The position numbers and the translations under genes are program-made. The notes beneath the pieces are model-generated. The model searched no databases, was not told where the DNA came from, and saw only the letters and a program-made list of their open reading frames with translations. From Ruminococcus sp. (GTDB lineage: Bacteria > Bacillota > Clostridia > Oscillospirales > Acutalibacteraceae), in assembly GCA_017456845.1 (NCBI GenBank), contig JAFTIP010000051.1:1-41764 (forward strand): a stretch of 41,764 bases of DNA, given 5' to 3'. Of the stretch, positions 8,343-15,894 are shown piece after piece; position 1 is the stretch's first letter; each line of letters starts with the position of its first letter.

Positions 8343-11300
8343 ATGTTCAGAAAAGTTTTATCAGTTTTACTGGCGGTATCCCTGTTGATGTCGATGATGA
8401 TTTTAGGCACAGGTGCATCTGCTTCTGCACTTGATGAGAGAATCACCGTGAGAGAGGATAAGTCTTATGAAATTGCAGAAACAAAAGCAAACTTAGACTA
8501 CATTATTCCTGTTGGTTCCGGTAATAACATAACCTATTATGACCAAAACAATAACGAGGTGGATATTACTCCGGAGATTTCAGCTTCCAGCGTAGATGAA
8601 AGCTTATTGCCATCAAGCTATGACCTGAGAGATGAAGGCAGAGTTACTTCTGTTAAAGATCAGGGCAGCGAGGGATTTTGCTGGAACTTTGCAACAACAT
8701 CCTCAATGGAGTCAAGCATTCTCTCAAATCCTGAGCTCAGAGCAGCTTTAGGCGAGAATCCTCAGGAAAAACTGGATTTATCAGAAGCCGGCAACACTTG
8801 GTATATTCACACCAGCATTGAAGATAAAGACTCTTTTTTATACGGAGATCATATGGTGGATGATAATAAGGGCAGTGAAGGCGGCTATCATCACACCATA
8901 GCGATGGGCCTCAGCAGTGGTTTTGGTGCATATCCTGAAGAGCTTATGCCTTACGAAAGCTGGGGAATTAACTACGACGAAGCCTTAAGATTCTATTCTG
9001 ATTATCGACTTAAAGATTATGTTGCCTTTGACTATGATATCTCCTTAGCTAAACAGCGTATTATGGAATATGGCACATTGTATCTCGGCTACACAAATTA
9101 TTCATCAAATTATCATTATACTGAAGACGGTATGCAGACTTATTACACTGATGGTTTTCCTGTAAATCCTGATGATTCACGTTTGGGTCACGCTGTAGCA
9201 GTAGTTGGTTGGGATGATAATTTCAGCAAGGATAATTTCTGCGAAGAAATGCGTCCCGAAAACGACGGCGCTTGGCTTATTAAAAATAGCTGGGGTACTT
9301 GGGCGGGCAGTACAGCTGAAGGCTATGAGGGTTATTTCTGGATGTCTTATGAATCTGAAAATGACGGAGAATTTGCTCAGTATATTATGCAATCCGTAGA
9401 TGAGTTTGACAATATTTACCAGTATCAGTATTCATATACCAATGCTGTTGGCGTTTATTCAGCGGCAAACGTGTTCACAGCTAAAAATGATGAAATCCTT
9501 GAGCAGATCAGTTTTTCCAACTATACTCCTGCTGATCTTACAGTGGAAGTTTATAGACTTAATGATAATTACACATCTCCTGAAGATGGCAGTCTTCTGA
9601 CTTCCTTTACAGAATACATTGAGTATTCAGGCACACATTCTATGGATGTGCCTGAATCAGTACAACTTAATGCAGGAGATAAATTTTCAGTCGTATTAAA
9701 AAGCGATAGTAGATTTTACATACTGCAGATGCTTGAAGGTGCTATAGAGCTGAGCAACATAAGCTTTTATAAAGTTGGAGACTTGTGGACTGATGTTACA
9801 GATGAATACCACCCAGGCTATATGAGCATAAAAGCTTATACATCAAATAAAGACGGCAAAGTGTATAAAAATGAGCTTGCTGACGTTATTGAAGAGGTTG
9901 AAAATTTAGATATAAATGACGATGCCCCTCAGTATATCAAGGATAATATAAGCGACGAGCTTCAGAATGCAAAGAATGTTTTTAATGACAGTAACGCTAC
10001 TCAGAATACTGTTGATAACACCTGTTGCTTCTTAAGAAAAGCAATGAATGATTATAAGAACTTATTCTTTGAAATCAACAGTATGGACGACTTCATCGCT
10101 TTTTATAATGCAACTGCAGATAACAAGTATATTAATTCAACTGTAAATCTTAATACGGACCTTGATTTCAGCGAGTCTGACCCCATAAATCCTTTGTATA
10201 AGAAAGAATACTTCGGCGGAGTATTTAACGGTAATGGCCATACTATCAGCAATCTGGTGGTTCAGTCAAATGAGGCTTGCGGTTTGTTCAGCAACCTTGA
10301 TGGTGCAGTTGTAAGTAATTTAACACTGGATAACTGCAGTTTTACTGCTGGCAGACGTGCAGGTGCAATTTCAGGCAATGTAACTTATTCAACAATTACA
10401 GGATGTACCATTACAAACTCTGAAATTGTTACTGATTTCAGATCTGCAGGCAGTATTGCAGGTGTGGCTGAAGAATCTTCTATAAATGATTGTAAAATTT
10501 CAGTCACAAAAATTGTAAGCATAAACGAAACTGCCGGCGGTATTGTAGGTTCTTCCATATATTCAAACATTGAAAATTGCAGTATTTCCGATATAGAGGT
10601 TATTGGTTATAGTGCATTTCTGTTTACAGATTCCAATGTAAGCAACTGCGTTTACGAGGATGTTTTGATTAAAGGTTTACTTTATATAAGACTTGATGAT
10701 AATGTGTTAATCTTTAATAACTCTGATTCTTACAGTTATTATTCAATGCTTGTGTATGAAAATAACAAGTTAACCCTTCATCCATATATCGGCGTAATTA
10801 CAGATGCCTCCTCTGATGAGGCAAACATTTCCAAATCAGGCGAAATTTACGAAATAGATACCAACAATAATGAAATAGTTGATATATGGGTATCTTACGG
10901 GGAACTTGATACCAACAATTTCGCTTTTGAATTTAATATTTTAACTGATGAAGTAAAGCTTCTCGGTTATTATAACGGCGATGACGAAACTGCTACAGAG
11001 ATTGTGTTCCCTTCATATATAGGTGAACTTGCAGTTACATCATTGGCTTCAGATTTTTCAATTGAAAGTGTAGCACCCGTTAAGTCGGTAGTCTGGACAG
11101 AGAATATCAAGATGATACCTGCCTTTACTTTTATGGGTATGGATGATCTTGAAACTGTAACAATTCCTGACAGTGTTACATATATCGGTTACGGTGCATT
11201 TGTTGAATGTAAAAATATTAAAGACGTTTATTATGGCGGAACCGAGGAACAGTGGAATCTGTTGAGTTTCGGAACTGCAAATGAAAGCATTAAGAATGCA

Positions 11301-11891
11301 AACATCCATTTCGCTCAGGAAGAAACCACATCTGTAACAACAACTCCTGCAGAAAGCACTCCTGCCGACACAGAGCCTGAGTCAACAGTAACAGACCCTG
11401 CAGAGAGCACACCTGCTGAAACAGAGCCTGAGTCAACAGTAACAGACCCTGTTGAAAGCACACCTGCCGAAACAGAGCCTGAGTCAACAGTAACAGACCC
11501 TGTTGAAAGCACACCTGCCGAAACAGAGCCTGAGTCAACAGTAACAGACCCTGCAGAGAGCACATCTGCCGAAACAGAGCCTGAGTCATCAGTAACTGAG
11601 CCTGTTGAGAGTTCTACAGCAACCGAGGCTACAGAAACAACAGCTGAAACAACAGTTAACACAGAGCCTACTCAGGAAACCACAACAGCACCTCAACCAG
11701 AGTTTGAGATGGGTGATGTTAATAGCGACGGCAAGCTGAATATCAAAGATGCAACACTTATCCAGAAGCATATAGCAAAGCTTCTTACGTTAAGCGATTC
11801 CCAGCTTTCCTATGCAGACTGCAATATGGATAATAAGGTGAACATCAAGGATGCAACCTATATCCAGAAGAAGATTGCACACATCATCTGA
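8343..11891 (+). CDS. Secreted papain-family (C1) peptidase with dockerin
   Basis: A 1182-residue secreted protein. Order of parts: signal peptide (1-29, ending ASASA), propeptide-like stretch, C1 papain-type peptidase with Q107, C113 (in VKDQGSEGFCWNFATT), H283 (HAVAVVGWDD) and N315 (WLIKNSWGTW). Then come a lectin-like beta domain (about 340-500), a short helical piece (535-600), GLUG-like beta repeats (about 610-790, e.g. NGNGHTISNL), a BspA-type leucine-rich LRR_5 region (about 890-985, IPDSVTYIGYGAF), and a Thr/Glu/Pro-rich linker with five 17-residue repeats (995-1120). A two-segment dockerin ends it (1123-1182, DVNSDGKLNIKDATLIQK and DCNMDNKVNIKDATYIQK). All catalytic residues are present. 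The ATG at 8343 follows AGGAGGA. It probably acts outside the cell, docked on a cohesin scaffold; substrate unknown. Confidence 0.92.
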   Translation: MFRKVLSVLLAVSLLMSMMILGTGASASALDERITVREDKSYEIAETKANLDYIIPVGSGNNITYYDQNNNEVDITPEISASSVDESLLPSSYDLRDEGRVTSVKDQGSEGFCWNFATTSSMESSILSNPELRAALGENPQEKLDLSEAGNTWYIHTSIEDKDSFLYGDHMVDDNKGSEGGYHHTIAMGLSSGFGAYPEELMPYESWGINYDEALRFYSDYRLKDYVAFDYDISLAKQRIMEYGTLYLGYTNYSSNYHYTEDGMQTYYTDGFPVNPDDSRLGHAVAVVGWDDNFSKDNFCEEMRPENDGAWLIKNSWGTWAGSTAEGYEGYFWMSYESENDGEFAQYIMQSVDEFDNIYQYQYSYTNAVGVYSAANVFTAKNDEILEQISFSNYTPADLTVEVYRLNDNYTSPEDGSLLTSFTEYIEYSGTHSMDVPESVQLNAGDKFSVVLKSDSRFYILQMLEGAIELSNISFYKVGDLWTDVTDEYHPGYMSIKAYTSNKDGKVYKNELADVIEEVENLDINDDAPQYIKDNISDELQNAKNVFNDSNATQNTVDNTCCFLRKAMNDYKNLFFEINSMDDFIAFYNATADNKYINSTVNLNTDLDFSESDPINPLYKKEYFGGVFNGNGHTISNLVVQSNEACGLFSNLDGAVVSNLTLDNCSFTAGRRAGAISGNVTYSTITGCTITNSEIVTDFRSAGSIAGVAEESSINDCKISVTKIVSINETAGGIVGSSIYSNIENCSISDIEVIGYSAFLFTDSNVSNCVYEDVLIKGLLYIRLDDNVLIFNNSDSYSYYSMLVYENNKLTLHPYIGVITDASSDEANISKSGEIYEIDTNNNEIVDIWVSYGELDTNNFAFEFNILTDEVKLLGYYNGDDETATEIVFPSYIGELAVTSLASDFSIESVAPVKSVVWTENIKMIPAFTFMGMDDLETVTIPDSVTYIGYGAFVECKNIKDVYYGGTEEQWNLLSFGTANESIKNANIHFAQEETTSVTTTPAESTPADTEPESTVTDPAESTPAETEPESTVTDPVESTPAETEPESTVTDPVESTPAETEPESTVTDPAESTSAETEPESSVTEPVESSTATEATETTAETTVNTEPTQETTTAPQPEFEMGDVNSDGKLNIKDATLIQKHIAKLLTLSDSQLSYADCNMDNKVNIKDATYIQKKIAHII
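11343..11624 (+). repeat. 51-bp tandem repeat encoding the peptidase linker
   Basis: Five near-identical 51-base units begin (at ACAGAGCCTGAGTCA) at 11370, 11421, 11472, 11523 and 11574, with degenerate flanks. Each codes for 17 residues of the type TEPESTVTDPxESTPAE. The units stay in frame and differ mainly at silent sites and at Ala/Val, so they are likely to gain and lose copies by slippage. The acidic Thr/Pro-rich text is typical of flexible linkers before dockerins. Confidence 0.95.
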
Positions 11892-11906: not shown

Positions 11907-11938
11907 AAAAGCGGTTGGTAAATCATCAACCGCTTTTT
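11907..11938 (+). terminator. Terminator after the peptidase gene
   Basis: AAAAGCGGTTG (11907-11917) pairs with CAACCGCTTTT (11927-11937) around a 9-base loop, followed by T residues. It lies 15 bases after the stop codon and closely resembles the rplQ terminator at 8183. Confidence 0.88.
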
Positions 11939-11953
11939 TGTTGTTTGCAATAT

Positions 11954-12051
11954 GTTAGCCACCCGAGGGCAGTTCCATTGTTAGCCACGACAGAGCAATT
12001 CCGCCTTTGGATAAATTGATTTAACCCCGTCGTTTAATTAACGGCGGGGTT
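11954..12051 (+). repeat. Left copy of intergenic repeat (with GTTAGCCAC motifs and hairpin)
   Basis: GTTAGCCAC occurs at 11954-11962 (followed by CCGAGGGCAGTTCC) and at 11980-11988. From 11980 the text runs through ATTCCGCC (11998-12005) and ATAAATT to a 12-bp hairpin (arms 12023-12034 and 12040-12051, AACCCCGTCGTT / AACGGCGGGGTT). The same series of blocks occurs in the opposite orientation at 14037-14106. No U-run follows the hairpin on either strand, so a terminator role is weak here. Confidence 0.75.
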
Positions 12052-12069
12052 AGGTTATTAATTATGATT

Positions 12070-12711
12070 TTATTCTGTAGTGAAAACGTTAACTCCACTT
12101 GCTTCGATGAATTCTATAAAATCCGCATCGGAAATGTTTTCTTTGAAAAACTCAATATTTTCGTCAGTAAGCTCTTTAAGCCCTACAACAATTACACTTT
12201 CCGAGTGGTCAATATAAATATTTGTAATCATATCGCCGCTGTAAGCCAGCTCAAGATACTTAGTTATTCTGTCGTATTCATCCTGTAAAACTTCGTAGCT
12301 ATGGTCAGGGTTTGCGGTTTTGGTTGGTACGGCTGTAAGTTTTTTAAACTCCATTTTTTTATTGTCAACAATAATCGTCAGTACATCTTCTTCAATAGAG
12401 TAGGGGTAGGTATGTATTCCTTTGTCAAGGACTTCTCCGTTATAGGAAAGAATGGTTATGTAACCGTTAAAAGCACTATATTCGAAGTCATAGCTTTCGG
12501 TATAGTTGTCTTCATAGATATTCATAACGTTACCTGTGTTGTCATCTTTAAAGGTAAGGTGAATATCGTAGTAGCCTGTTTCATCATCCAAGCCGATAAC
12601 ACTGCCTTTTGTGTACCATAAACTGTCTGTAAGTTCGGGCTTTGGGGAACAAGCAGTTAAAAGAGGGAGTAATAAGAGAATTGCAAAAAACAAACATATA
12701 CTTCTTTTCAT
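12070..12711 (-). CDS. Predicted lipoprotein, function unknown
   Basis: A 213-residue protein with a lipoprotein signal peptide: MKR, a hydrophobic stretch, then the lipobox LTAC with C21 as the lipidated residue, so it should be anchored on the outer face of the membrane. The remainder is mostly predicted beta strand (YYDIHLTFKDDNTGNVMNIY and similar) with a short helical C-terminus (ENIEFFKENISDADFIEFIE). I do not recognise the family. It lies 12 bases downstream of the anti-sigma-like gene and is very likely cotranscribed with it and the sigma factor, so a part in envelope sensing, or being a target of the sigma factor, is a reasonable guess. Confidence 0.8.
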   Translation of the reverse strand: MKRSICLFFAILLLLPLLTACSPKPELTDSLWYTKGSVIGLDDETGYYDIHLTFKDDNTGNVMNIYEDNYTESYDFEYSAFNGYITILSYNGEVLDKGIHTYPYSIEEDVLTIIVDNKKMEFKKLTAVPTKTANPDHSYEVLQDEYDRITKYLELAYSGDMITNIYIDHSESVIVVGLKELTDENIEFFKENISDADFIEFIEASGVNVFTTE

Positions 12712-12723
12712 AAAATCAACTCC

Positions 12724-13293
12724 TTATTTTGTACTATTTATCATTTTGTCGAAGCCTTCAAGGGTGGCGAGGTCGCATTTTTCAGAGGTGTATTTGGCGG
12801 CATATTCGCCCATATCCACCCAAGTATAAGATGTTATGTCAGAATTTTTGTTTTGGGGATACAAAACTCTACCCATAACCTCATCTTGTGGTAAATACTT
12901 TTTTGGAAAAATATGAAGATAGATAGTGTCAAGATTAAAATGATTATAAAACTCTGCCTCTAAAGTGTTATCATAAATATAAATCTTGCCGTTAATAAAG
13001 TAGTTGTCGGCAAATTCTGTGGGGAAGCAGTCGCCAAAAACCTTGTGGTCGTAGATTTCGTGAGCATATAATGCCTCAGCATTTGCTGATGTTGTGCTGG
13101 TGTAGGTAATTGTAAAGTCGGGCTTTGGTTGAGGATTAATAATCATAGCAATTACAAGGCAGGCGGCAAAAGCGACAGCAGCAACTTTTATTGTTGTAAT
13201 TACGAAGCTGCTTTTAGGTTTGTAACTCTCAGCTTCACTTATAAGCTCGTCATCAATATAGCCCATAGCTTTTGATATTCTTGAAACACTCAT
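12724..13293 (-). CDS. Predicted membrane anti-sigma factor
   Basis: A 189-residue protein with a short cytoplasmic N-terminus (MSVSRISKAMGYIDDELISEAE), one membrane helix (about 34-52, VAAVAFAACLVIAMII) and an external domain of about 135 residues. This layout and the overlap with an ECF sigma gene (ATGA shared with its stop codon) are typical of anti-sigma factors; the YIDDELI N-terminal motif is common in clostridial proteins beside such sigma factors. No zinc-binding ZAS motif (HxxxCxxC) is seen. The start is supported by AAAGGAGGGC inside the end of the sigma gene. The signal it senses is unknown. Confidence 0.75.
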   Translation of the reverse strand: MSVSRISKAMGYIDDELISEAESYKPKSSFVITTIKVAAVAFAACLVIAMIINPQPKPDFTITYTSTTSANAEALYAHEIYDHKVFGDCFPTEFADNYFINGKIYIYDNTLEAEFYNHFNLDTIYLHIFPKKYLPQDEVMGRVLYPQNKNSDITSYTWVDMGEYAAKYTSEKCDLATLEGFDKMINSTK

Positions 13294-13844
13294 ATGTGCA
13301 CGCCCTCCTTTATAAGATATTTCTTAAGCTTATTTCGTGTGTGAAAAAGCATTGATTTAACTTTGCTTTCGCTGAATTTGTACCGCTTTGCAATATCACT
13401 TACTGAGTCGAAGTACCAGTATTTTCGTATAAATACGTTGCGTGCATCGGCTTTTTCTTTTTTAAGAAACTCACTTATAACTCTGCCGATTTCTTCATCA
13501 TCAAAATTCTTAGAAATTGCGTGATCGGGGAGGATTTCTTCTAACTCTGAAAAGCAAACTGTAATATTACTATCTCGCCTTTTGGCACGGTTATATTCTA
13601 ACTTTTTAAGAGATAGGTTCCTCACAATTTTACAAATAAAAGTCATGAAATTAGCAGGGCGTGCAGGGGGGATTTTGTTCCACAAGGTAAGATATGTATC
13701 ATTTACGCATTCCTCTGAGTCCTCAGTATTACTAAGAATATTACCTGCAATACTAAGGCAAAGCTTGCCGTATTTTGAGGCAGTTTCAGCTATGGCTTTT
13801 TCGCTTCGCGAAAAGAAAAGCTCAATAATCTTATTGTCATCCAC
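13290..13844 (-). CDS. ECF-type RNA polymerase sigma factor
   Basis: A sigma-70-family protein of about 184 residues with only regions 2 and 4. Region 2 contains SEECVNDTYLTLWNKIPPAR and FICKIVRNLSLKKLEYNRAK. Region 4 holds the helix-turn-helix DSVSDIAKRYKFSESKVKSM. It would direct polymerase to a small regulon, probably including its own operon. I choose the GTG at 13844 as the start because the AAGGGAG site (13853-13859) is 8 bases upstream. The in-frame ATG at 13850 is only 2 bases from that site, and the GTG at 13853 overlaps it. The resulting N-terminus (MDDNKIIELFF) also looks typical of the family. Confidence 0.88.
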   Translation of the reverse strand: MDDNKIIELFFSRSEKAIAETASKYGKLCLSIAGNILSNTEDSEECVNDTYLTLWNKIPPARPANFMTFICKIVRNLSLKKLEYNRAKRRDSNITVCFSELEEILPDHAISKNFDDEEIGRVISEFLKKEKADARNVFIRKYWYFDSVSDIAKRYKFSESKVKSMLFHTRNKLKKYLIKEGVHI

Positions 13845-13901
13845 AAGCATCACTCCCTTGACTTTATTATATTATTACATATTTCTACTTTCAATAATAA
13901 A

Positions 13902-13928
13902 GTACGGAAATGAACCGATTTGGTTGCA
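13902..13928 (-). promoter_or_regulatory. Possible ECF-type promoter of the sigma operon
   Basis: On the minus strand TGCAACC (13922-13928) is followed, after 15 bases, by CGTAC (13902-13906). An AAC core at -35 and CGT at -10 with about 16 bases between them is the general pattern of ECF-dependent promoters, and such sigma operons usually control themselves. No good sigma-A promoter is seen in this gap. The assignment rests on pattern only. Confidence 0.4.
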
Positions 13929-13991
13929 AAAAATAAAATTTTTATCTGACCCGCCGTAGATGTAGGTTGACTTTGAGTACAAACTGTCCGT

Positions 13992-14030
13992 AGGCGAATT
14001 GCCCTCAAGGGGCTGCCTTGTGGCTAACCC
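13992..14030 (-). repeat. GTTAGCCAC / GGGCAATTCGCC repeat block, right side
   Basis: On the minus strand GTTAGCCAC (14020-14028) is followed by a GC-rich stretch and GAGGGCAATTCGCC (13993-14006). It matches the block starting at 11954 on the plus strand (GTTAGCCACCCGAGGGCAGTTCC) in reverse orientation. It lies next to the larger repeat at 14037-14106. Confidence 0.65.
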
Positions 14031-14032
14031 GC

Positions 14033-14063
14033 AAAAAACCCGCCGTTAATAAAACGACGGGTT
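14033..14063 (-). terminator. Terminator of the transketolase operon, within the right repeat
   Basis: Arms 14037-14047 and 14053-14063 pair fully on the minus-strand RNA (one U-G pair); on the plus strand there is a C-A mismatch. In the minus direction it is followed by six T residues (14038-14033). It lies about 40 bases after the transketolase stop and forms part of the repeat element. Confidence 0.85.
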
Positions 14064-14106
14064 AAGATAAATTTATTAATAGGCGGAATCACCCACCGTG
14101 GTTAAC
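14037..14106 (-). repeat. Right copy of the ~70-bp intergenic repeat
   Basis: Read on the minus strand from 14106: GTTAACCACG, then ATTCCGCC, ATAAATT, TTAACCC, GTCGTTTTATTAACGGCGGG. This follows the left copy (11980-12051) block by block, roughly three-quarters identical by eye, in inverted orientation. The repeat begins on the stop codon of the transketolase C-terminal gene (CGT TAA). Confidence 0.75.
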
Positions 14107-15046
14107 GGGCAAGCTCTTCGCGGATTACATCTGCGATACCTGTTTCGGTGAGGCCGAACTTCTCAAGAAGCTCCCAAGCGGGGCCTGAGTAGACGTAGCG
14201 GTCATAAACGCCAACCTTGCGAACCTTAACGGGGCACTCCTCGCTGGTTACCTCAAGAACTGCATCGCCAAGACCACCGATAACGTTGTGCTCTTCAACA
14301 GTGATAATCTTGCCTGTTTCCTTAGCAGCCTTGATGATGATATCGCGGTCGATAGGCTTAATGGTGTGGATGTTGATAAGACGAACGCTGTATCCTTCTT
14401 CCTGAAGCTTTAAGCAAGCCTTGCGGCACTCGTTAACAACAAGACCTGTAGCGATAACTGTAATGTCATTACCCTCCTGAAGAGTAATACCCTTGCCAAG
14501 CTCGAACTCGTAAGTTTCGGGGTCATTGAAGGAATCAATAGCAAGTCTGCCAAGTCTGATGTAAACAGGGCCAACGTGCTCAATAGCAGCCTTTGCAGCT
14601 GCTTTCATTTCCCAATGGTCAGCAGGGCAGAGAACTGTCATGCCGGGGATTGTACGCATAAGAGCAACGTCCTCAAGGCACTGGTGAGTTGCACCGTCTT
14701 CGCCTGTGGAAATACCTGCGTGGCTGCCTGCGATTTTAACGTTTAAGTGGGGGTAACCTATGGAGTTACGAATCTGCTCGTAAGCTCTGCCTGTTGCAAA
14801 CATTGCAAAAGAAGCAGCAACGGGGATTTTACCTGCTGATGCAAGACCTGCGGAAACGCAAATCATATTACCTTCTGCAATACCGCAGTCAAAGAATCTT
14901 TCGGGAAATTCTTTCTTGAAAATAGAAGTCTTGGTAGCACCTGCAAGGTCAGCATCAAGAACAATAATATCTTCGTTAGTTTTAGCAAGCTCGCAAAGAG
15001 CCTCGCCAAAGCTTTCTCTGGTTGCTTTTGTTACGATATCAGCCAT
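14102..15046 (-). CDS. Transketolase, C-terminal subunit
   Basis: A 314-residue protein holding the pyrimidine-binding and C-terminal domains of transketolase: DIIVLDADLAGATKTSIF, then FDCGIAEGNMICVSAGLA (with the catalytic Glu), YEQIRNSIGYPHLNVKI and the C-terminal TVEEHNVIGGLGDAV. It works with the N-terminal subunit to move two-carbon ketol units in the pentose phosphate pathway. I place the start at the ATG at 15046, which overlaps the stop of the first gene (TAATG) and is 9 bases after GGAGGG; a GTG two codons earlier is less well placed. The split into two chains is common in Firmicutes and archaea. Confidence 0.94.
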   Translation of the reverse strand: MADIVTKATRESFGEALCELAKTNEDIIVLDADLAGATKTSIFKKEFPERFFDCGIAEGNMICVSAGLASAGKIPVAASFAMFATGRAYEQIRNSIGYPHLNVKIAGSHAGISTGEDGATHQCLEDVALMRTIPGMTVLCPADHWEMKAAAKAAIEHVGPVYIRLGRLAIDSFNDPETYEFELGKGITLQEGNDITVIATGLVVNECRKACLKLQEEGYSVRLINIHTIKPIDRDIIIKAAKETGKIITVEEHNVIGGLGDAVLEVTSEECPVKVRKVGVYDRYVYSGPAWELLEKFGLTETGIADVIREELAR

Positions 15047-15894
15047 TAGCACTCACCCTCCAATTCCTTAAGCTGAGCCTCAAGCTCTGCAATTGCTTTT
15101 TCGTACTCGTCTTTGTTGGGGCCTTTGCCGTGCCAGTCAACCTGGTCTTCCATAAAGCTAACGCCCTTGCCCTTAACAGTAGCAGCAAGAATAGCTGTGG
15201 GCTTGCCCTTAACTTCCTTAGCTTTGTTAAAAGCAGCTTCAATATCGTCAAAGCAGTGGCCGTTGATTTTGATTACCTCAAAACCAAAGCTCTCGAACTT
15301 TTTATCAAGAGGCTCAATACCGCAAACATCAGAAACTTTGCCGTCAATCTGAAGGCCGTTCTGGTCAACGATAACTACTAAGTTATCAAGCTTGTTGTGA
15401 GCAGCAAACATAGCTGCCTCCCAAACCTGACCCTCTTCGCACTCGCCGTCGCCGAGGACTGTGTAAACACGGTAGGGGTTATTGTCAATTTTAGAAGCCA
15501 GAGCCATACCGCAAGCGGCAGAAATACCCTGACCGAGTGAGCCTGTGCTCATATCAATACCGGGAGTTTTGTTCATATCGGGGTGACCCTGAAGCATCGC
15601 GCCAACGTGGCGAAGCTTTGAGATTTCTTCCCAAGGGAAGAAGCCCTTAAGTGCAAGGATTGCATAAAGGCTGGGGCAGCAATGACCCTTTGAAAGAACA
15701 AAACGGTCGCGGTTTGTCATTTTAGGATTTGTGGGGTCTACGTTCATTTCAGCGAAATAAAGGTAGGTCATAATGTCAGCGGCTGAAAGTGAACCGCCGG
15801 GATGGCCTGACTTAGCGTGGAATGTACCTTCAACGGCACCCATTCTTGCTTTACAGGCAAGCTTTTTAAGCTCGTTTTTCTGAGTGTTCTGCAT
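15046..15894 (-). CDS. Transketolase, N-terminal subunit
   Basis: A 282-residue protein carrying the thiamine-diphosphate-binding domain: HAKSGHPGGSLSAADIMTYL (about 26-45), RFVLSKGHCCPSLYA, and the metal/TPP motif GDGECEEGQVWEAAMFAAHN (148-167). The start is the ATG at 15894, preceded by AGGAGG with 7 bases between; a longer reading from 15936 has no binding site and would add an unrelated hydrophobic leader. It is first in a two-gene operon with its C-terminal partner. Confidence 0.95.
   Translation of the reverse strand: MQNTQKNELKKLACKARMGAVEGTFHAKSGHPGGSLSAADIMTYLYFAEMNVDPTNPKMTNRDRFVLSKGHCCPSLYAILALKGFFPWEEISKLRHVGAMLQGHPDMNKTPGIDMSTGSLGQGISAACGMALASKIDNNPYRVYTVLGDGECEEGQVWEAAMFAAHNKLDNLVVIVDQNGLQIDGKVSDVCGIEPLDKKFESFGFEVIKINGHCFDDIEAAFNKAKEVKGKPTAILAATVKGKGVSFMEDQVDWHGKGPNKDEYEKAIAELEAQLKELEGEC

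Follow-up and report, generated by a model that had tools for sequence, protein, structure and literature searches.

We analysed a contig of 41,764 nucleotides (nt) from a Ruminococcus sp. genome (GCA_017456845.1, contig JAFTIP010000051.1; the whole stretch is referred to below as the window) and found three copies of a short hairpin element in it, at the ends of two genes that face each other. Element A lies on the plus strand (11973..12049; covariance model match of 43.3 bits, E 8.8e-11), downstream of a gene for a papain-family cysteine peptidase with dockerin (8346..11891, plus strand; Pfam PF00112 and PF00404; stop codon TGA at 11889-11891) and of that gene's own terminator, found by terminator scan (11907..11937, plus strand). 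Elements B (14038..14111; 36.0 bits, E 1.5e-8) and C (13949..14024; 40.5 bits, E 6e-10) lie in tandem on the minus strand behind the gene for the transketolase C-terminal subunit (14102..15052, minus strand; Pfam PF02779 and PF02780). We assign element A to the end of the peptidase gene, and B and C to that of the transketolase gene. Both genes converge on a block with a sigma factor gene, and the copies look like a mirror pair for this reason.

The initial annotation had described mirrored repeats of about 70 bp accompanied by second shared blocks, and both are present. The inverted arms (11998-12051 and 14036-14089) are 54 nt long and 83% complementary, and a 24-nt direct repeat (79%; 11953-11976 and 11979-12002) lies beside the first copy. 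The block GTTAGCCAC occurs exactly on the plus strand at 11954 and 11980 and on the minus strand at 14020-14028, while GTTAACCAC occurs on the minus strand at 14098-14106. The 9-mer with one mismatch is by itself not enriched in the window (9 occurrences vs 7.5 expected), but the long repeat is far above chance, with E 7e-10 from the plus copy to the minus copy and E 5e-15 to a copy on another contig.

Within element A, a small first hairpin (P1, about 11978-11990) is followed by a linker and by the arms of a second stem, P2 (CCGCC at 12001-12005 and GGCGG at 12043-12047). A strong, terminator-like local hairpin (AACCCCGTCGTT..AACGGCGGGGTT; 12017..12057, plus strand; terminator scan and fold) competes with P2. 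Upstream, a degenerate extra P1 unit (GTTAGCCACCCGAGGGCAGTTCC; 11952..11976, plus strand) has lost its 5' stem arm and forms the 24-nt tandem repeat; this unit is arrayed in other copies too. Element C has the P1 stem CAAGG/CCTTG and the loop CAGCC. In element B the P1 loop is TAACC, and translation identifies its TAA (14104-14102) as the transketolase stop codon. The gene end (...EELAR*) thus has both its last codon, CGT, and its stop inside the P1 hairpin, which agrees with the earlier observation that one copy starts on this stop codon.

The element forms a dispersed family. A covariance model (R1) built from nine long-stem copies lists 100 places in the genome that holds the window at E up to 1. 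Following up 93 of them (E up to 7e-4), we re-found 92 distinct copies in the fetched stretches at E up to 1e-4, the remaining one overlapping a neighbour; copies lie on 34 of the 62 contigs. With the plus copy as a plain DNA query, the same genome gave 50 matches at E up to 10, including the query itself and pieces of one place, and 19 at E up to 1e-3. Plain DNA comparison gave no match at E up to 1e-3 in the 38 other relatives searched, so a structure model is needed to see their copies. At E up to 1e-4, 74 of 161 genomes of the same genus had a match, many of them only one or two, among at most 29 candidates scored per genome (29 in the host genome and in genomes G052, G069, G075, and G137). 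A second model (R2), built from relatives and applied with strict filters at E up to 1e-5, was run on 150 genomes drawn from the family (135 genera) and on 295 drawn from the order (148 genera). In the first set it matched the host genome alone (one genus), and in the second the host and one weak outlier (G412, three matches; two genera). Its distribution is thus almost restricted to a single genus. The initial annotation had proposed a non-autonomous repeat family and a search of the whole genome and close relatives; the 92 copies and the 74 genomes support its main point, a dispersed and apparently non-autonomous repeat. Rfam 15 gave no match in the window; in seven loci that contain the element it gave 14 matches at E up to 5, every one of them below the gathering score. 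In the open-access literature, represented mostly by titles and the beginnings of abstracts, we recognised nothing as this repeat. As far as these searches show, it is a new variant of the repetitive extragenic palindromic (REP) type.

Two further observations concern repeats near these copies. At three loci in other genomes (L177, L183, and L254), similar copies stand in tandem every 110-200 bp or so, which suggests recent local multiplication. A second dispersed palindrome (GTAGGGGCGGATATTATCCGCCC and variants) occurs near the element at loci L053, L024, L017, and L023.

Copies are modular and about 70-78 bp long: one to three P1 hairpins are followed by a linker of the GGGC type and by a long P2 stem that encloses an inner hairpin (P3) with poor pairing. 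P1 has a stem of 3-6 bp and a 5-nt loop, UAGCC in most copies of the host genome, and its stems are diverse yet paired (CCG/CGG, GCAGG/CCTGC, GTGGG/CCCAC, CTCG/CGAG, and others). P1 is repeated in two or three tandem units of about 26 nt in 19 of 85 host copies. On its 3' side follow, in order, GGGC, AATTC, CCGCC-TTTGGA, the inner hairpin, and AACGGCGG; P2 is formed by CCGCC...GGCGG, modelled as a 5-bp stem around a large loop. More distantly related congeners show a shift to a GAGCC loop and an AGCC linker, with a similar tail.

Pairing is conserved while sequence changes. Paired cells made up 94.8% of P1 and 95.8% of P2 in the host alignment, and 98.3% and 98.4% in the alignment of relatives. 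Cells changed on both sides numbered 121 in the host and 186 in relatives, compared with 45 and 58 in shuffles, and such changes affected 14 of 18 and 15 of 18 pairs (reached in 22 and 0 of 500 shuffles, respectively). The covariation score was reached by none of 500 shuffles in either alignment. Both alignments were fitted to the model, which biases these values towards the model's pairing. An alignment-free test of P1 in 43 copies, picked by pattern from loci L001-L060, gave a mean paired stem run of 3.93 vs 2.34 when shuffled (0 of 10,000).

The element also makes close contact with stop codons. We counted positions for 92 of the 93 covariance model rows of the host genome (L036:217 and L221:1001 being the same copy), of which 85 had a hairpin and 68 an upstream open frame on the same strand, and for 99 of 108 rows from relatives, leaving out nine fragments or edge rows. 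Hairpins and frames were assigned by rules of our own (60 or more open codons, without a gene caller), and some hairpins are mis-set. An in-frame stop lay at -9 to +3 of the P1 foot in 34 of 68 host copies and in 35 of 70 copies from relatives, the latter partly dependent because orthologous sites (dnaA, aldolase) are among them; a control mirrored to the 3' end gave 0 of 56 and 2 of 44. The 34 host contacts comprise 20 with the stop at the P1 foot or overlapping it by one base, nine in the loop region, and five within -5 to +3; the same classes hold 25, six, and four of the 35 in relatives. Under stricter rules, a hairpin was recognised in 71 copies and a gene end could be assigned for 60; 34 of the 60 were in contact with the stop, against two of 48 in the control.

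A third count placed 44 host copies away from an in-frame stop. TAA, TAG, or TGA stands at the contact position in just one of them, so the actual stop matters, not the triplet. Of these 44 copies, 24 lie within 4 nt behind a T-run (background 17%); about five of these T-runs are inside a preceding repeat unit and about ten, judged by eye, are terminator tails. In alignment A1 the bases preceding P1 show no conservation; most belong to stop codons or T-runs. Most copies follow a gene in the sense orientation. Of neighbours at most 3 kb apart, 15 pairs are tail-to-tail, 12 point the same way, and none are head-to-head, an arrangement to be expected if each copy follows its own gene. The 70 upstream frames listed look unrelated, although their names were not searched. 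At the 3' end of dnaA, the element is found in four close species (loci L149, L174, L228, and L242 of genomes G000, G052, G075, and G057), and in some of these the loop, or else a degenerate first hairpin, contains the stop; the gene was identified by Pfam for the host copy and by eye for the other three.

Comparison of filled and empty sites in close species points to insertion. We read 30 aldolase loci (Pfam PF01116) among 154 genomes with the gene. The locus is filled in the host genome and in G069, G075, and G057, with the element at zero distance behind the TAA. In genome G052 the element is absent from the position behind the aldolase stop, and a copy lies immediately after the terminator tail instead; the other 25 loci had no element tail motif within 80 nt of the stop. 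In four empty species, 33-36 nt separate the stop from a terminator stem of the same sequence, whereas in G069, G075, and G057 the element end lies 29-33 nt from this stem and the total distance from the stop is 101-104 nt. About 70 bp have therefore been added directly behind the aldolase stop. By eye, neither terminal inverted repeats nor a target duplication were evident at this locus, and no systematic search was made. At the transketolase locus the repeat is present in the window and at loci L061 and L062 and absent from L063 and L064; the transketolase end in L064 has, by eye, only a terminator of similar sequence. At L062:9000-9140 (minus strand), a dockerin frame runs on through P1 without a stop (...KVIFCGSATHGATPPLESLAIEVVFC*) and ends in the element's 3' TTAACGG; an inserted copy can thus extend a protein at its C-terminus.

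From the pairing, the stop contact, and the filled and empty sites, we infer REP-like behaviour, and we consider it probable that this is a dispersed REP-type element that moved as a hairpin and whose placement right at the stop codon is tolerated or favoured. Some factor would move the hairpin. This tolerance or preference may arise because a terminating ribosome would melt a hairpin abutting the stop codon; in the gaps between ribosomes, the hairpin could mark the message end or shield it, and a hairpin a few bases further downstream would be expected to disturb termination. A more specific version, which we put forward only tentatively, is that the mobile hairpin is directed to, or selected at, in-frame stops in two fixed registers, with its foot behind the stop or with the stop as its loop. 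If true, spread or retention would be read out by the terminating ribosome or by message events, and transposases of the kind associated with REPs would not necessarily be involved. The family's many sites, filled in one close species and empty in another, are natural replicates for asking why repeats settle at stops and how they affect termination and message ends, and its precise contact with stop codons deserves experiments.

Several observations weigh against a hairpin that acts at stops in the message. No same-strand gene end could be assigned within the searched distance for 17 of 85 host copies and 25 of 95 hairpin-bearing copies from relatives, and some copies, by eye, abut the apparent ribosome-binding site of a divergent gene. 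The aldolase spacer of G052 is just 25 nt, so this genome may have lost an element. The inner hairpin P3 is poorly paired (61%-66%). A test for selection on the RNA gives mixed signals: G-U pairs are not in excess over A-C mismatches in P1 and the four inner P2 pairs (39 G-U vs 28 A-C, p 0.22), the outermost P2 pair favours G-U, and P3 goes in the opposite direction (71 G-U vs 175 A-C). Pairing between the P1 loop and GG[C/T], seen in the host species, does not hold in the clade whose GAGCC loops precede AGCC. Among 43 copies this pairing comprised 37 G-C, four A-T, two A-C, and no G-T, but the selecting pattern fixes most of the loop. We leave this candidate pseudoknot as unproven, given both the choice of copies and its loss in the GAGCC clade.

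The most serious rival is a mobile hairpin acting as DNA, without a role in the message, that an enzyme inserts beside stops and behind terminators, with stop contact kept by selection that removes other insertions. We judge this explanation less probable than not by a clear measure, yet it accounts for much of the evidence. Presence and absence at the aldolase and transketolase loci, the tandem arrays, the unrelated upstream frames, and the copies behind T-runs all fit it. The lack of a G-U preference in P1 and inner P2 is also in line with it, as are P1 pairs that switch between C-G and G-C, a change without a G-U intermediate. On the other hand, contact with in-frame stops and almost never with other such triplets, as well as the orientation bias, is hard to obtain by blind insertion. 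The outermost P2 pair, initially set aside, has 24 G-U vs 4 A-C, and including it G-U exceeds A-C (63 vs 32, p 0.002).

Searches for an enzyme that could make such insertions also count against this rival. Y1 transposases (PF01797) gave no match in the host genome (93% complete) or in the high-copy genome G018, and genomes G135, G137, and G143 are not among the 80 genomes with PF01797 matches listed. One or two matches each, which may include REP-associated tyrosine transposases (RAYTs), occur in the close high-copy genomes G052, G057, G069, and G075. A RAYT or other Y1 enzyme as the mover is thus unsupported rather than excluded for the lineage. We rejected reverse transcriptase as the mover: the host genome has one gene and eight other high-copy genomes have none, while three of ten genomes chosen for having no element match carry the gene, so it does not track copy number.

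It is improbable that these are 3'-end control elements, mainly transcription terminators, spread by gene conversion. For element A, a hairpin whose tail is weakly T-rich is predicted (12017-12057), element B reads, by eye, CCCGTCGTT...AACGGCGGG followed by TTTTTT, and several other copies end in AACGGCGGG-TTTT. However, the terminator scan listed neither element B nor element C, many copies have no T-tail by eye, and the P2 stem is only 5 bp around its large loop. In three of the four species with a filled aldolase locus, the old terminator persists downstream of the element; elsewhere, too, copies follow a terminator. Terminating is therefore not a general role, and we rejected it as such; the initial suggestion that the repeats double as terminators holds for some copies at most, as predicted for element A.

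Between the repeats lie three minus-strand genes that are not part of the element. These encode a sigma factor (13290..13853; region 2 match to Pfam PF04542, E 4e-8), a putative anti-sigma protein (12724..13293), and a putative lipoprotein (12070..12711) convergent with element A, the last two labelled in the initial annotation and without a Pfam match. The sigma gene has a likely promoter at 13902..13927 (minus strand; AAC-N16-CGTA, ...TTTCCGTACTTTATTATTGAAAG), located by eye, which we take to be of the extracytoplasmic function (ECF) type. Nearly identical promoter-like stretches lie downstream of transketolase at L061 and L062, in L061 before a different open frame (by eye). In the peptidase gene, a low-complexity tandem stretch (ESTPAETEPESTVTDP-like; 11315-11662) precedes the dockerin.

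The closest named relatives by transketolase are metagenome-assembled genomes such as RGIG6258, RGIG4202, SIG571, and RGIG2200. In RGIG4202 (L062), relatives of the sigma (73%), anti-sigma (43%), and lipoprotein (83%) genes adjoin transketolase in the same place as in the window, a dockerin protein lies beyond the block, and repeats stand behind both transketolase and the dockerin protein. RGIG6258 (L061) has relatives of the sigma (81%) and anti-sigma (92% over 100 residues) proteins, with other sequence separating the repeat from the sigma gene; its contig ends at the sigma block. In RGIG2200 (L064), a partial relative of the lipoprotein (49% over 83 residues) is present, and the transketolase end lacks a repeat. 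Block and repeats therefore vary separately. Although two repeat sets do flank three genes in inverted orientation, the reading of them as the ends of a mobile cassette or, as the initial annotation suggested in the alternative, as scars of its insertion is very unlikely and was rejected: 89 of the 92 host copies lie outside the window, copies occur on 34 of 62 contigs, their orientation follows the upstream gene, adjacent opposite copies within 3 kb are tail-to-tail in 15 of 15 cases, and the block varies apart from them.

Most of what is known about REP-like repeats comes from Proteobacteria that carry RAYT transposases. According to earlier reports, REP elements are short dispersed palindromes with more than 100 copies per genome, intergenic and clustered, often near stop codons or supplying the stop (PMC2817692, PMC12306157, PMC3733652), and those of the GTAG family often supply the stop (PMC12306157, PMC3733652). 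Our element resembles REPs of the GTAG and CGTC families as a high-copy intergenic palindrome near gene ends. It differs in its two-stem layout of about 70-78 nt, in being found almost only in one Clostridia genus, in having the stop codon at its very foot or in its loop, and in a host genome where no Y1 or RAYT gene was found. No GTAG or CGTC tag was seen by eye, and no tag scan was run. The present REP-like family comes from gut Clostridia, and its many stems are paired although their sequences vary.

Other repeat classes share single features with it. BOX elements of pneumococci have a variable number of hairpin modules and a constant end module, and their modularity is similar, but their sequence is unrelated and their host and position relative to genes are different. 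Integron attC sites end in RYYYAAC/GTTRRRY, which the element ends do not fit by eye; no integrase search was made. DNA uptake sequences have been reported as repeats specific to a species that lie in hairpins close to gene ends (PMC1852404). They are about 10 nt long with more than 1000 copies, unlike the roughly 70-78 nt and roughly 90 copies here. Enterobacterial RU elements are reported to be small mobile intergenic repeats (PMC2759123). With these and with miniature inverted-repeat transposable elements, our element shares non-autonomy, dispersal, and presence or absence among relatives, but it has no terminal inverted repeats or target duplication visible by eye and has a strong orientation and stop-codon bias. 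In E. coli, REPs less than 16 nt behind the stop are reported to lower translation (PMC12306157), and the stop-codon contact seen here is sharper than this 15-nt rule.

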